The translations under genes were made by a program, and so were the position numbers. Under the pieces are notes generated by a model. The model saw nothing but the letters and a program-made list of their open reading frames with translations, did not search any database and was not told the origin of the DNA. Positions 1 through 40,027 of a DNA stretch of 63,998 nucleotides are shown one piece after another (position 1 is the first letter of the stretch; the number at the start of each line of letters is the position of its first letter). Source of the stretch: a virus; the IMG/VR virus record IMGVR_UViG_3300035182_000918, positions 1-63,998 of that record; one strand, given 5' to 3'.

Positions 1-166
1 TAACGGTCATAATTAATAATACTGTATTAATAGTCAGTAGAAAAAATGGTATCATTGTTTTTTCTATAAACAGGCGTATTTGCTGTAATCTTACTAAATA
101 CTGTTGTAGTTCTTGAATACGCTTTTGTTCCTCTTGCTTCATTATTTCTTGTTTACTCATTCTCAT
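1..166 (-). CDS. Small two-helix membrane protein, holin candidate (C-terminus cut by window edge)
   Basis: This is the N-terminal part of a gene whose full homologue lies at 40230-40517. The visible part starts MRMSKQEIMKQEEQKRIQEL, a charged, coiled-coil-like stretch, and then enters a hydrophobic segment (FFLLTINTVLLIMTV) at the window edge. The start chosen is the first of two close ATGs, which follows a GGGGGCGATA ribosome site and overlaps the 3' end of the upstream gene. The homologue has two membrane helices and sits beside other small membrane proteins and the endolysin, so a holin or lysis accessory role is inferred, not shown. Confidence 0.7.
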   Translation of the reverse strand, partial: MRMSKQEIMKQEEQKRIQELQQYLVRLQQIRLFIEKTMIPFFLLTINTVLLIMTV

Positions 167-359
167 TATCGCCCCCTAAATCCGTTCCAAAACCATCGTA
201 TTTTTTAAGTTCTTTATTTGTCTTTAGATAATTAAGTGCAATGCCTATAGCTATTTCAGCCCTGTTTAGTTCCTCTATATCCTTGTCCTTGTAAGATGAA
301 ATAATATCATCAACTTCAGCCTTGACTTTGTCCTCTATTGTCATTAGCTTTTTTGCCAT
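153..359 (-). CDS. Conserved small phage protein, 68 aa, unknown
   Basis: A 68-residue, highly charged protein (MAKKLMTIEDKVKAEVDD) predicted to be mostly helical. A GGAGG site lies just upstream of the ATG, and the start overlaps the gene before it. The homologue at 40504-40710 differs at only a few residues, so the frame is under constraint. It sits between the primase cluster and the lysis cluster. No family was recognised. Confidence 0.75.
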   Translation of the reverse strand: MAKKLMTIEDKVKAEVDDIISSYKDKDIEELNRAEIAIGIALNYLKTNKELKKYDGFGTDLGGDNENE

Positions 360-615
360 ACTTTTCCTCCAATATTTTGGCTATATATTTTGATGCATTT
401 ATTTGATAAAGCCTTTCGCCCAGATATTTCACAGTAGACTTCGGATACTTAACAGCTAAATCTGCAGCTTCAAGTAGTATATCAACTACTTGTGCCTCTG
501 GTAATATTTCCCTAATATCTTCAATCAAGTCCTCTAAAAAGATGTAGTTCGGGTAATAATCCCTTTGTGCTATAACCGCTATAATCAGCTTTGTGTATCC
601 TTCTAACTCATACAT
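316..615 (-). CDS. Conserved early protein, 99 aa, paralogue of the domain at 6595-7056
   Basis: A helical protein whose core pattern (YPNYIFLEDLIEDIREIL, then VKYPKSTVKYL, then SKYIAKILEEKYG) recurs in the N-terminal half of the product of 6595-7056 (YPNYITSEDLVEDTLELVK, EKYPKTVI, PKLIAKIL). The two are therefore paralogues, and this one lacks the C-terminal helix-turn-helix. It starts immediately after the primase stop codon and is probably translationally coupled. The homologue in genome B is at 40679-40966. Function unknown. Confidence 0.8.
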   Translation of the reverse strand: MYELEGYTKLIIAVIAQRDYYPNYIFLEDLIEDIREILPEAQVVDILLEAADLAVKYPKSTVKYLGERLYQINASKYIAKILEEKYGKKANDNRGQSQG

Positions 616-616
616 A

Positions 617-2101
617 TTAATTAAACATCTCTACCGTTATTTCGTTATTATTAGTCATAGGTAAATAATTGTTTTTTATTATCCTAACCTTTACCCCATT
701 GTAATACCTGTGCAACAGTGCAACCCATCTTGAGTTATCAAATAGTGCTGCTGCACCCCTTAAGCCCTCTTTACTATCGTTGTCCTTTTTTCTTAAGTGG
801 TGTATCATTACGATATTGCTATTGGTTCTTTCAGTTAATCTCATTAATCTTTGGAATATAGCCTCTACAATCTCATTGTTGTTCTCATCGGAAAACAGCA
901 TACCAACTGGGTCTATAAAAACTAAATCGCTGTTAGTTAAATGCTCTTCAACTTTTTCAAAGAAATAATTGCCACGCCTTGTCCATTCACCATCTTTTAA
1001 CAGGTTGATATGGTTTATTCTTTCCACAACTATTTTCCCTGCTATTGCTTCGTAGTTACCGTCAAAATATGTGTCAATTAGGTGTTTAATCCTGTATAGT
1101 ATAATATAATAACTATCTTCAAGACTTATAAAAGTAGTCTTTAATCCCTCGTTAATAGCACCATAAATAGCACAATATAAACTAAACATAGACTTACCTT
1201 CACCACCTCTACTTGCTAATATACCTATAACACCCTTTGGTATATTTAAGAGTTCAGGTAATAATATTTGAGGCTCTGGTATTGGTTGAGTTAAAGCTTC
1301 TATATCAATTACATACTTTTGGGTTTCCACATTCTTATACAAGTAATCAGCGTTATCAAGTAATACCCAAAAGTCCTCTTCGGAAGACTCTTGAATAAAG
1401 TCAGCAATGTCATAACCTTTTTTAGGGTTACCTCTAAACCTTACAATTCTTATTGTATTCACTATAGGTTCAAGTGTTTTTTGAATAGCTTTTGTATTAC
1501 GATATCCAGTCTCATCATTGTCTTCAAATATAACTATATTTGCTTGTCTAAAGTATTCTTCTAAATATTCTTGATATTGAACCTCAAAACTGTTAAAACC
1601 AAGCACTATTGCGTTTGCATCAATAGCAAAAGGTTTTAATGCTTCAGCACATTTTTCACCTTCAGTCAACCAAATCTCGGTATCCATACTACGCTTTTGT
1701 GGCAACTGTTGCAAATTATACAATACTTGGGTTACGCCTTTTGGTTCTATTTTAAAGGTTTTCTTACCGTCCTTTTCATAGCGATATTTCTTATATAACT
1801 CATTACCATCTAAATCTTTGTAAACATACACCACAACATTATCCACATTGTTTAAATCAAGATTACTGTTCTTAAATTCACCCATTTCTTTAACCCCCAT
1901 TAATTGTAAAAATCGTTTATAATTTCCGTGAACACCACAACCGAAACAGTGGAATGCTCCAGTCTCTGGATTTATTCCCAAACTTGGGTTGTGGTCTTCG
2001 TGAAAAGGGCAGGTTGCAAGGTAGTTATTTCCTACTTTTTTTATATCCAAATACTTGTTATAAAGTTTAAGATAATCAGGTTTCACTAATGCTAAATTCA
2101 T
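617..2101 (-). CDS. Primase-helicase fusion (CHC2 zinc finger, TOPRIM, RecA-like ATPase)
   Basis: Replicative enzyme expected to make RNA primers and unwind DNA. The N-terminus has a CHC2-type zinc finger: CPFHEDHNPS near residues 31-40 and FHCFGCG near 50-56 give Cys-x2-His and Cys-x2-Cys. A TOPRIM region follows at about 140-215 (TEGEKCAEAL, then IFEDNDETGY). The C-terminal half is a RecA/RepA-like ATPase with Walker A GGEGKS around residue 300, Walker B-like LVFIDPVG and a sensor-like MIHHLRKK. The layout resembles phage T7 gp4, with a RepA-like motor. I chose the ATG at 2101; a GTG three codons upstream is also in frame. The 5' end overlaps the 182-residue gene by 26 nt. Confidence 0.93.
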   Translation of the reverse strand: MNLALVKPDYLKLYNKYLDIKKVGNNYLATCPFHEDHNPSLGINPETGAFHCFGCGVHGNYKRFLQLMGVKEMGEFKNSNLDLNNVDNVVVYVYKDLDGNELYKKYRYEKDGKKTFKIEPKGVTQVLYNLQQLPQKRSMDTEIWLTEGEKCAEALKPFAIDANAIVLGFNSFEVQYQEYLEEYFRQANIVIFEDNDETGYRNTKAIQKTLEPIVNTIRIVRFRGNPKKGYDIADFIQESSEEDFWVLLDNADYLYKNVETQKYVIDIEALTQPIPEPQILLPELLNIPKGVIGILASRGGEGKSMFSLYCAIYGAINEGLKTTFISLEDSYYIILYRIKHLIDTYFDGNYEAIAGKIVVERINHINLLKDGEWTRRGNYFFEKVEEHLTNSDLVFIDPVGMLFSDENNNEIVEAIFQRLMRLTERTNSNIVMIHHLRKKDNDSKEGLRGAAALFDNSRWVALLHRYYNGVKVRIIKNNYLPMTNNNEITVEMFN

Positions 2102-4154: not shown

Positions 4155-4691
4155 ATCTTTTGTTTCACCCAACATTTGCAATTCTAAATAATATAACGCT
4201 AAAGCATCTATAGTATTCATTCCTTTACCAGTCCAGTTATTATGAGATATTCTTCTATGTAGTTTTTTAGGAATATATATTACGGTTTCTTTGTCTTGTA
4301 GGTGATGGGCTTCTGAACCTTTAAAGTGTCCGTTTAATGGTCTAAAACCTAATCGTCGTCTTTTGTAACGCATTCTAAGATAAACCATCTTCTTTCCTCC
4401 TTTCCATTTTGAATGTTCTTCACCATATTTGCCATACATTGGGTTGTTTTCACCTTTTTTGGCTCTGCTCATTCTTACTTTAAATTCTTCCGAATGATGC
4501 TTACCATACATTGGGTGATTTTCACCTTTACAAGCTTCACTTATACTTCTGCTTTTTATACCAAATTCTTTCATTCGTCTCCTAATGGTGCTATCGCTTG
4601 TTCCTAATTTTTTAGCAACTTTTCTTAAAGATAGTTTTTGATTAATATATAAATCTTCAATTTCTTTTTTGCTTACACTAAATCTTCTCAT
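4128..4691 (-). CDS. Free-standing HNH homing endonuclease with NUMOD3 repeats (genome A only)
   Basis: A 187-residue predicted selfish endonuclease. Residues about 7-45 form a helix-turn-helix (KLSLRKVAKKLGTSDSTIRR). Residues about 55-95 hold two NUMOD3 motifs (GENHPMYGKHHSEEF and GENNPMYGK), which bind DNA. The C-terminal part (SEAHHLQDKE then KKLHRRISHN, about 127-153) resembles an HNH nuclease core. It is absent from genome B, where the flanking genes are adjacent (45195 and 45199). Its insertion changed the C-terminus of the 4678-5136 product and brought in a promoter for the gene downstream. Confidence 0.85.
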   Translation of the reverse strand: MRRFSVSKKEIEDLYINQKLSLRKVAKKLGTSDSTIRRRMKEFGIKSRSISEACKGENHPMYGKHHSEEFKVRMSRAKKGENNPMYGKYGEEHSKWKGGKKMVYLRMRYKRRRLGFRPLNGHFKGSEAHHLQDKETVIYIPKKLHRRISHNNWTGKGMNTIDALALYYLELQMLGETKDLTNLKEVV

Positions 4692-5136
4692 AAAAACTTC
4701 CTCTTTTTAACACTTTGTCAGCTATCTTTTCTGCTAACTCTTTTAATAATTTAAAATCACAAAAAGCTTGGTATCCATCTTCAATAACCTCTCTTAATGT
4801 CCAATCCTTACCTTCCTCTATAAAACTTCCCAAAATGAAATAATCGCCTTCGTGCATATAATCCCAACCATACCAGTAAAAACCTTTTGGATAATATTTA
4901 TCATCACCTTCCTCACTAAAAGTTAAACCACCGTGACATCTTAAAGGCAACTCATAATCACTAAACCCCGCTAATGGGTGGTCTTCTGGTATACCCAAAT
5001 ACTGTGTGAAATGGCTACCCCTAACATTTAGTATCAACCTTTGAACACCGTCTTCGTTCCACTCCAAAACCTTGCAACTCTGTTCTCCAAAATCCCTTGC
5101 GTGCCTTTTACCAAGTTCATCAGACACTTGTAACAT
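4678..5136 (-). CDS. Conserved phage protein of the HGGLTF type, 152 aa
   Basis: The motifs GIPEDHPLAGFSDYELPLRC, HGGLTFSEEG and WYGWDYMHEGDY belong to a hypothetical protein family widespread in tailed phages, of unknown function. The start follows GGAGGTG. The last residues (KRGSFYEKI) differ from those in genome B (KRNKEE) exactly where the HNH gene joins, so the 3' end was rebuilt by the insertion. The gene is transcribed from the promoter at 5159-5186. Confidence 0.85.
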   Translation of the reverse strand: MLQVSDELGKRHARDFGEQSCKVLEWNEDGVQRLILNVRGSHFTQYLGIPEDHPLAGFSDYELPLRCHGGLTFSEEGDDKYYPKGFYWYGWDYMHEGDYFILGSFIEEGKDWTLREVIEDGYQAFCDFKLLKELAEKIADKVLKRGSFYEKI

Positions 5137-34379: not shown

Positions 34380-34927
34380 TTCGCCTCCTTTTTTAAAAAC
34401 TTTTGATATAAACTTTTCTTAACTTCTTTTGGTTGTTCTATCTCTATCATTTCTATTTCTTCTGCTGGACTTATATAATTAATAAAAAATACAGGAAATC
34501 CTATCGGTAATTTACTCAAATCCCTTTTTTCCATCTTATATTTCTTCCATAGAGAAAAATTGTAAACAGCTAAATCATATTCACTTGGATATTCCTTACT
34601 TATCGTGTTAAGCAGATTACATAATTTTAACCAATCTCTTTTTCGTGTTAAAAACCAGCGGGTTATTATAACTTGAGTTTGATTTCTTGATAGTTGAATT
34701 GGTTTATGCTTTTTGGGAAAATAAGACTTTAAGTCATCTACTTTTTTGCCGTCCCTTTGTAGCTTTTCCAGAACAGTTACTTTAGTTGCTTTGGTTAAAT
34801 ACTTTGTTTCTTTAAAGTTACGAAGAGTTTGAAGACCAACTCCTAACCGTTCAGCTATCTCCTTATAGGTGTAGCCGTTATTGTGGGCATAGTCTATTAC
34901 ATCAAGCAATATGCCATTTGTAATCAC
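34376..34927 (-). CDS. Putative small terminase subunit (N-terminal helix-turn-helix)
   Basis: A 183-residue protein. YTYKEIAERLGVGLQTLRNF (residues about 19-38) is a clear helix-turn-helix. The rest is helical and charged. It overlaps the large terminase gene by 4 nt. Recognition of the packaging site is inferred from the HTH and linkage. Confidence 0.6.
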   Translation of the reverse strand: MITNGILLDVIDYAHNNGYTYKEIAERLGVGLQTLRNFKETKYLTKATKVTVLEKLQRDGKKVDDLKSYFPKKHKPIQLSRNQTQVIITRWFLTRKRDWLKLCNLLNTISKEYPSEYDLAVYNFSLWKKYKMEKRDLSKLPIGFPVFFINYISPAEEIEMIEIEQPKEVKKSLYQKFLKKEAK

Positions 34928-36792
34928 TTTATCTTATACCCCGCATTATTAAATTCTTGTTTTACAATGTTTTGAATAAGAAGCTGTTGAGGATTTTCTT
35001 TGGCTATTTTTCTCATCTCTTCTTGCTTGGTTAACTTTTGCAAATACTCTTCGTAAAACGGAAGCATCGGCTGGAGTATCGCTTCCCAAGCTTCTATTGC
35101 AAACGCAGCACACATAACTCTATCATCGTGCTTTGATTGTATAGCACCTATATCTCCGTTGTCTACAATGATATATTTTAACTCTTGCATTAAATCGGAA
35201 CTTCTAATAATACAACTACCATCAGCTACCGCTGCTTTCAGCTGTGCCATAATCTTATGCTTATTACCACCTGTTATCCACTGTATTGCACTACCAGGCA
35301 TTAGGCTATCAACCCTTTTGTAAACATAATCTTTCATTTTTCTTGCATACTCATATAGGGTTCTATCTTTAACATTCTCTTCAATTATTGTTCTTCTTAA
35401 CAATTGAATAATCTGTGCTACTGCCCTACCAGCACCATCTATCTCATACATAGACAAGTATGCATTAAACATAGAACCGATTTTAAGGAACAAGTAAGCC
35501 GATTGAATAGTATCGGTGGTAGGACTTGCCCACTCTGCTACTTGGAGTATTTTATCCCTAAATGCTTTCCACACTTGAATAACAGCCCTATCGCTTTCAG
35601 GGTTAGTAGAGTAAGCTGGGTCAAATGATAAGATATAACCATTGTAAGATAAATCTGGTGGGTCTTCCCATATCTTTAAATGACCTGTTTGACTTGGTGC
35701 TAACTGTGTTTTAGATGGCTTATCAAAAAATACAGGTTCAAATCTCTTAATAGGCTCTTTTACTTCTTCTTGTGCATTCCTTAATGTAGTAGGAACAAAA
35801 TAGTTACTACCACTTGCCCTAAAGGCATCTTCAGGAACAAAAGGATACATCTCATACATTTGGTCTTCTTTTGATTTACCTGTCTCATAGTCTTCTTTTA
35901 TTTTTTCTTTAAAAGTTTTTCTCCACCAAGCTATTTGATTCATAGTGAGTTCATAACCGTATACCCTTTTTATCTCATCAACTCTTTCTTTTTCGTCAGA
36001 GGTTAAATTGTAACCATATTTGAGTAAATCAGCATCGTTATCAACCCTATAAATATCTTTTAACCACCACCCAATAAATAAGGCAGCTTGGGTGTTACTT
36101 TCTTTGGCTGCTTCCCAAGTATCATAATAGAAGTTAAAACCGTTTGCTGTTGACTCATAAACAAATAACCTCTCGGGATTTGTCTCGCTAAAGGTTTGTT
36201 CAAAGTTGTTTATATCTTGAACGCTTGGATAATAAGCCACTTCTGTTAAATGAGCAAATGTAGTAGCTTGACCTCTACCCATATTACCTGTAGCTTTGTT
36301 ACGACTTTTTGGGTGATAGTAAGCAATATCTGAATCAAGTGTTCCAACACTTGTCCAAGTAAAACTGGTATGGTCTGCATTATTTATAATCATTGGGCGC
36401 TTTTGAGAAGGTTGAAGAGATTTCCAATATCGTTTTGTAATAAGAGCACGAACTTCTTTTACCGTTCTTTCGTCGTGGGCTACAATTGCTGCTTGGGTAT
36501 TTCTAAATCTCATTGCATAGTATAAATCAAACAATGACATTGATGTGGTTATACCAAGTTGTCTTGCTTTGAGAACAACAATTGTTTTAACATCTTTACT
36601 TTCTAATGTTTCAAATAATACTCTAAATAGTATTTTCTGTGCTCCATACCATTCCTTGTGATTAAAATTCATCCTGCCTTTTTCCTTTGATACAATTACA
36701 ACATTTTGGCTCCACTTAATAAAATTTTTATATGAAATATTATTGAATTCTAAATAATTTGTGATATATTCTGGCTTTATCTGAATAATCAT
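34924..36792 (-). CDS. terL: Large terminase subunit
   Basis: A 622-residue packaging motor. The ATPase domain has a Walker A-like VVLKARQLGITTS (residues 72-84) and YESTANG (about 215-221) in the coupling region. The RNase H-like nuclease domain has LSFDPAYS (about 390), MYEIDGAG and KHDDRVMCAAFAIEAWE (about 565). It pumps and cuts DNA at the portal. It lies just after a strong terminator with no obvious promoter between, so read-through or a weak promoter must express it. Confidence 0.92.
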   Translation of the reverse strand: MIIQIKPEYITNYLEFNNISYKNFIKWSQNVVIVSKEKGRMNFNHKEWYGAQKILFRVLFETLESKDVKTIVVLKARQLGITTSMSLFDLYYAMRFRNTQAAIVAHDERTVKEVRALITKRYWKSLQPSQKRPMIINNADHTSFTWTSVGTLDSDIAYYHPKSRNKATGNMGRGQATTFAHLTEVAYYPSVQDINNFEQTFSETNPERLFVYESTANGFNFYYDTWEAAKESNTQAALFIGWWLKDIYRVDNDADLLKYGYNLTSDEKERVDEIKRVYGYELTMNQIAWWRKTFKEKIKEDYETGKSKEDQMYEMYPFVPEDAFRASGSNYFVPTTLRNAQEEVKEPIKRFEPVFFDKPSKTQLAPSQTGHLKIWEDPPDLSYNGYILSFDPAYSTNPESDRAVIQVWKAFRDKILQVAEWASPTTDTIQSAYLFLKIGSMFNAYLSMYEIDGAGRAVAQIIQLLRRTIIEENVKDRTLYEYARKMKDYVYKRVDSLMPGSAIQWITGGNKHKIMAQLKAAVADGSCIIRSSDLMQELKYIIVDNGDIGAIQSKHDDRVMCAAFAIEAWEAILQPMLPFYEEYLQKLTKQEEMRKIAKENPQQLLIQNIVKQEFNNAGYKIK

Positions 36793-39574: not shown

Positions 39575-39892
39575 TCAATCATTATTCCTTTCTTTCAATT
39601 CCTTCACTATCATAACAATCAAAAAGTAAGACAACGAATAAAAGTAGTTCGATAAATGTGTCATTTCATCATCAATATCTGTTTCTATAAGCTCGTTCCA
39701 AGTCTCTACAAATACTTGCTGTGATGCCAGTTCTCTATCATTCACACAAACTCCATCTATTACAACATCATTAACCTTCCAATCTTCTTTTTCTATCAAA
39801 GATAAAATACCTTCCAATATTAGCTCTGTAAAACCATTCTTAATTAGAAAATCTTCTAAATATGAATACTCTTCAAATTTCTGCAACTCCAT
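39575..39892 (-). CDS. MEL-F-FF family small protein, 105 aa, directly after the mini-tmRNA
   Basis: Starts MELQKFEEYSYLEDFLIKNG and ends FLIVMIVKELKERNND, matching the family at 9785, 45652 and 53045. The ATG at 39892 follows AAAGGAGGTG. An in-frame extension upstream runs through the RNA gene and promoter and is rejected. It is probably translated from the transcript that also carries the RNA at 39909-39989. Confidence 0.7.
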   Translation of the reverse strand: MELQKFEEYSYLEDFLIKNGFTELILEGILSLIEKEDWKVNDVVIDGVCVNDRELASQQVFVETWNELIETDIDDEMTHLSNYFYSLSYFLIVMIVKELKERNND

Positions 39893-39908
39893 AAACACCT
39901 CCTTTACT

Positions 39909-39989
39909 TGGTGGAGGAGACGGGAATCGAACCCGTGTCCAACAGATGCGCTTTGGCTTTTACCTGTTGTCAAAACCATTCGCTCCCCC
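39909..39989 (-). ncRNA. Miniature tmRNA-like RNA: tRNA-like domain without tag frame
   Basis: The minus-strand RNA is 81 nt. It has a 7-bp acceptor stem (GGGGGAG/CTCCTCC) with a G-U third pair, then CGAATGGTTTTGA resembling the tmRNA D-loop (GG-x-TT-x-GAC). Next come a 6-bp stem CAACAG/CTGTTG with an 18-nt loop, GGAC, a T-arm (ACGGG-TTCGATT-CCCGT), discriminator A and encoded CCA. The GGAC-plus-T-arm end closely matches tmRNA 3' ends. The message-like region and pseudoknots of tmRNA (hundreds of nt) are missing. G3-U70 and A73 should allow charging by AlaRS. No normal anticodon arm can be drawn. Confidence 0.85.
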
Positions 39990-39996
39990 ACATAAT

Positions 39997-40024
39997 AATA
40001 TACACACTTTTTACAAAAAGTCAA
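39997..40024 (-). promoter_or_regulatory. Dedicated promoter of the mini-tmRNA
   Basis: Minus strand TTGACT (40019-40024), 16 bp, TATATT (39997-40002). Seven bases separate the -10 box from G1 of the RNA, so transcription should start at or next to the mature 5' end. Confidence 0.85.
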
Positions 40025-40027
40025 GTC

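Follow-up and report, generated by a model that had tools for sequence, protein, structure and literature searches.

tmRNA is close to universal in bacteria. Its tRNA-like domain (TLD) is charged with alanine and bound by SmpB and EF-Tu, whereas the mRNA-like region bears the resume codon, the tag reading frame with its stop, and the pseudoknots. Canonical tmRNAs (ssrA, Rfam RF00023), including the complete ones borne by some phages, span roughly 350–400 nt. Forms without a tag reading frame are known from the mitochondria of jakobids and as CDS-less plastid forms of ~65 bp in Mallomonadaceae. The 2025 tmRNA database lists only 9 standard-form genes without a coding region among 97,179, and one phage case (PMC11915505). 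This case is mycobacteriophage DS6A, whose tmRNA is little more than the TLD (Mao 2009; Hudson 2014, PMC4131195; Nawrocki 2025, PMC11915505). A TLD-only molecule is reported to strongly inhibit tmRNA, and the DS6A form to inhibit endogenous tmRNA in E. coli (PMC4131195, PMC11915505). Here, we describe an 81-nt RNA of this type in a viral record and show that the same kind of RNA is present in more than 200 further viral contigs.

The window, i.e., the whole stretch of DNA that was analyzed, is the IMG/VR virus record IMGVR_UViG_3300035182_000918 of 63,998 bases. The RNA is encoded on its minus strand and consists of the tRNA-like domain of tmRNA and little else (Table 1). All elements listed in an earlier note—which gave no strand—are present, although the P2 stem comprises 7 bp closed by 14 nt and not, as stated there, 6 bp closed by 18 nt. 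The acceptor stem is fully paired with G3-U70, the alanine identity pair; there is neither an anticodon arm nor a tag frame in the loop, and 81 nt leave no room for the pseudoknots. The tmRNA model of Rfam matches the RNA from model position 1 to 374 with the mRNA-like region missing, scoring 66 bits against a gathering score of 47 (E 1.6e-23 for the whole window), so that chance is excluded. ARAGORN—the usual tool, which rarely calls such elements—reports nothing in the window, making this type of RNA easy to miss. The minimum-energy fold contains the acceptor stem, P2 and the T-arm (z = -2.1).

Table 1. Positions of the mini-tmRNA, its elements, and features discussed together with it (window coordinates unless another record is named).
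Feature	Position	Strand	Description	Basis
Mini-tmRNA	39909..39989	-	tRNA-like domain only, 81 nt including CCA	RF00023, 66 bits; family model R1, 71.1 bits
Acceptor stem, 5' strand	39983..39989	-	GGGGGAG; pairs 7/7 with 39913-39919, G3-U70	sequence; family alignment
D-loop-like segment	39969..39982	-	CGAAT-GGTTTTGAC, no D-stem	sequence; tmRNA model alignment
P2 stem, 5' strand	39962..39968	-	AACAGGT; 7 bp with 39941-39947	sequence; P2 of the family covaries
Capping loop	39948..39961	-	AAAAGCCAAAGCGC, in place of the whole mRNA-like domain	sequence; fold
P2 stem, 3' strand	39941..39947	-	ATCTGTT	sequence; fold
Segment before the T-arm	39937..39940	-	GGAC	sequence
T-arm	39920..39936	-	ACGGG-TTCGATT-CCCGT	sequence; tmRNA model alignment
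Acceptor stem, 3' strand	39913..39919	-	CTCCTCC, with U70	sequence; family alignment
A73 discriminator and encoded CCA	39909..39912	-	A, CCA	sequence
Promoter block	39990..40026	-	TTGACT (40024-40019), 16 nt, TATATT (40002-39997), 7 nt before the RNA	repeated in the window; 37/37 identical in L100
Places of the repeated 37-nt block	7070, 9754, 12351, 39990, 48633, 51151, 53600, 54962	-	promoter-like	at most 7 changes
Next gene downstream	39575..39889	-	104 aa, unknown function, own ribosome-binding site	
Longer frame	39575-40024	-	reads through the RNA; probably not the gene	
Large terminase	34924-36792		best isolate match Hydrogenobaculum phage 1	31.8% identity
Collinear stretches	1-21791 and 40352-63998		mostly about 90-95% identical	
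Full-size tmRNA candidate, 123-kb phage record L137 (record of L007)	201-592		besides its mini-tmRNA	94 bits
Release-factor-like domain, 181-kb phage record G032 (record of L085)	111947-112138		record with mini-tmRNA	

The RNA is not an isolated case. We searched IMG/VR for the pattern GGNTTYGAC, 20–50 nt, GGACNNGGGTTCRANTCCC, which was split over four scans yielding 59, 31, 83, and 36 contigs, in all 209 contigs with 127 distinct sequences—a lower bound, as the pattern is strict. The pattern does not ask for an acceptor or a P2 stem. Nevertheless, 124 of the 127 sequences have a perfect 7-bp acceptor stem, compared with 0.8% when upstream sequence is used as a control. Of the three exceptions, one carries an indel (L019), one lies at the very end of its contig (L181), and one has two unpaired positions (L157). 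G3-U70 is present in 125 of 127 sequences and A73 in all, whereas an encoded CCA is present in only 25. Reading from GCN to a stop between GAC and GGAC is possible in only 35 of 126 sequences, without a shared position, product or tag; the mRNA-like function is absent. Among 50 phage records—49 from IMG/VR including the window, and phage LuckySocke—49 have an RF00023 match over the cut-off.

The structure of the family is under selection. A covariance model (R1) aligned 90 matches, and in 89 distinct rows 93.3% of the pair cells are standard with a covariation score of 0.672 (shuffled 0.138; slid partners at most 0.111). On the plain MAFFT alignment, which was not fitted to the structure, these values are 89.0% and 0.600 (shuffled 0.131; slid at most 0.14), and RNAalifold finds P2 and the T-stem unaided, with compensatory changes in eight pairs. 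Acceptor pairs 4, 5, and 6 take four or more pair types each, whereas pair 3-70 is G-U in 89 of 89 rows—as expected if alanylation is selected. Most members carry an A-rich bulge and a 3-bp hairpin inside P2, which itself varies with compensation; the loop of the window's own copy is shorter. The D-loop and T-arm motifs were demanded by the pattern and their conservation is, hence, not counted as evidence. Compensatory changes in the acceptor and P2 stems of relatives, which the earlier note had named as support for its reading as a tag-less phage tmRNA, are thus strongly borne out.

Seven isolated phages carry the element: LuckySocke, GiJojo, pSt2308, BRock, and Riptide (Streptomyces), Jojan60 (Stenotrophomonas maltophilia), and phiPsal1 (Pontimonas salivibrio), with R1 scores of 59.7–87.2 bits, and the structure covaries within this set too. 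In the regions read, none is annotated as tmRNA; in GiJojo and Jojan60 a hypothetical protein is drawn over it. Weak blastn hits in further isolates (Gordonia, Synechococcus, Salinibacter, Microbacterium, Cellulophaga, and IME-SM1) match only the T-arm end, reach 22–34 bits with R1, and are not counted. In 257 Gb of bacterial and archaeal genomes, the same pattern gave 13 hits, of which four score above 60 bits with R1. Three of these four genomes (Parafrankia, Mycobacterium, and Phycisphaerales records) also have a separate full-size tmRNA over 140 bits. In the two that were compared, Parafrankia and Mycobacterium, the mini differs from the host gene in acceptor and T-stem, so it is not a copied host 3' end. 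The hits in the bacterial and archaeal genomes also include tRNA-like false hits (L127, L128, L130); a pattern artifact for the 209 viral hits is, however, rejected, as almost all of them have the unasked-for acceptor stem. In addition, Microvirga lenta bears two copies of a longer mini-tmRNA-like element on two contigs (L124 and L125; 43.6 bits with R1 for L124), possibly a mobile bacterial relative.

The genomic sites of the element fit high expression. In 20 distinct loci, it lies 33–299 nt upstream of an HK97-type major capsid gene (Pfam PF05065, E 1.9e-43 for one representative), across capsid proteins as little as 43% identical, and phiPsal1 has the same arrangement. In 8 loci, it begins at or within a base of the end of an upstream gene. 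In 25 of 126, about a fifth, there are tRNAs within 2 kb; in LuckySocke, GiJojo, and pSt2308 it sits between tRNA-Val and the serine tRNAs—a place also kept in BRock (two tRNAs of pSt2308 are typed OTHER). Among the 50 phage records, many of which may be fragments, none has SmpB, 8 have a tyrosine integrase, 1 a release-factor domain, and 1 an additional full-size tmRNA candidate (Table 1). Hence, the RNA would have to use the SmpB of the host.

The window's copy is preceded by a promoter-like block. On its own such a match is expected by chance, but the block recurs at 8 places in the window—at several of them directly before a ribosome-binding site and start codon—so that it is very probably a phage promoter that here starts transcription at or near the first base of the RNA. 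In L100, a contig from a second strain of the same phage, the RNA differs at 2 of 81 positions and the promoter block at none, while the aligned stretch as a whole is 89% identical. The gene downstream is replaced in L100 by an unrelated gene with repeated segments also found near window 4400-4700. The end of the L100 contig is identical to window 1-689. The window itself runs about one and a half times round a phage genome of roughly 41 kb through two strains, or is a chimera of them. The match of its large terminase hints at a hot-spring host, although a host could not be fixed.

By its sequence, the RNA has every recognition element of the TLD: G3-U70 for alanyl-tRNA synthetase, A73, the D-loop/P2/T-arm body that SmpB binds, and an EF-Tu-compatible T-arm and acceptor. 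It is inferred that the RNA is made in quantity during infection, matured like a tRNA, charged with alanine by the host enzyme, and bound by host SmpB and EF-Tu, thereby competing with host tmRNA for SmpB and for stalled ribosomes. Without a resume codon it cannot finish trans-translation, so host tagging would fall. The phage might gain by protecting unfinished or nonstop-encoded phage proteins from SsrA-tag degradation, or by blocking a host process that needs tmRNA. With moderate confidence, we take this inhibition of host trans-translation as most likely, as it agrees with the reports on DS6A; in the absence of transcript, charging, or binding data, however, it remains an inference—SmpB binding being inferred from homology—as does the decoy function proposed in the earlier note. 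In addition, DS6A-like molecules are reported to inhibit whether or not they can be charged, so the strict conservation of G3-U70 asks for more than SmpB titration and suggests that ribosome entry in the charged state is selected. Also, phage lambda-imm-P22 needs host tmRNA, and inhibiting it is not obviously good for every phage. More tentatively still, and with slightly less than even chances, the family might represent a widespread, dedicated viral inhibitor of bacterial trans-translation—an alanyl-charged mimic kept by phages of very different hosts as a structured RNA rather than a protein—that shuts off ssrA tagging or tmRNA-dependent defense during infection.

The main rival is a tag-less ribosome rescue, in which the alanyl-mini-tmRNA with SmpB enters stalled ribosomes and takes over the nascent chain, which then leaves by drop-off, peptidyl-tRNA hydrolase, or a release factor—providing the phage with untagged proteins and free ribosomes. 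The conservation of G3-U70 means that charging matters, and jakobid and other mitochondrial tmRNAs are kept despite lacking the tag frame (PMC11915505). However, there is no known way to finish without a resume codon, a release-factor-like gene occurs in only 1 of 50 records, and the one tested relative is reported to inhibit and not to rescue; we hence regard this possibility as rather unlikely, though not closed. A counter-defense decoy appears less likely again. The RNA could occupy a host defense protein that recognizes tmRNA—such as the SmpB-like domains predicted in CoCoNuT type IV restriction systems, whose SmpB-like OB-folds are proposed to bind tmRNA (PMC11090510)—or an RNase that attacks tRNA-like RNAs. 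Phage tRNAs are proposed to evade tRNA-targeting host defenses (PMC10264068), and part of the loci lie close to tRNAs, yet the very broad phage range fits a universal target like SmpB or the ribosome better than a patchy defense system.

It is also doubtful that the element merely punctuates RNA processing, i.e., that it is cut by RNase P and the 3' tRNA-processing enzymes to set the 5' end of a downstream mRNA such as that of the major capsid protein. Its frequent abutment on genes would fit, but any tRNA would do for this purpose, while tmRNA-specific features (G3-U70, the lack of an anticodon arm, P2) are kept over wide divergence and many loci lie in tRNA arrays or after their own promoter. 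Least likely is a scar of integration into host ssrA; the earlier note had named a deletion scar of an integrated attachment site as one outcome that would refute its reading. Although ssrA is a common integration site (PMC10865867), this origin is not supported: both acceptor strands are present and paired, no tyrosine integrase is found in the window and few among the 50 records, the host ssrA 3' end differs from the mini in the two genomes compared, DS6A itself integrates at tRNA-Lys, and the covariation is strong. A permuted two-piece tmRNA is rejected, as the 5' half precedes the 3' half.

Compared with canonical tmRNA, the mini-tmRNAs share the acceptor with G3-U70, the D-loop-like GGNTTYGAC, P2, GGAC, and the T-arm, but comprise about 80 nt without resume codon, tag, stop, or pseudoknots; one phage record (L007) has both forms. 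With the tag-less jakobid and plastid forms they share the lack of a tag reading frame, yet those are organellar genes reduced by genome decay, without shared gene context. Phage tRNAs in tRNA arrays are likely to be processed in the same way as the mini-tmRNAs, which, however, bear no anticodon arm and cannot decode. Like the RNA of DS6A, the window's RNA is phage-encoded, with a complete TLD and no coding region. Whereas one phage example and a handful of organellar or doubtful bacterial CDS-less tmRNAs were known, a broad phage family with a conserved capped P2 is, to the extent of the open-licence PMC literature searched, not described. Such a family would make inhibition of, or substitution for, trans-translation a common phage strategy, and it includes culturable systems—LuckySocke on Streptomyces lividans, phiPsal1 on Pontimonas salivibrio, and Jojan60 on Stenotrophomonas. 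DS6A is one isolated sequence in the literature; the family presented here comprises 127 distinct sequences in unrelated phages and gene contexts, with a hairpin-capped P2.
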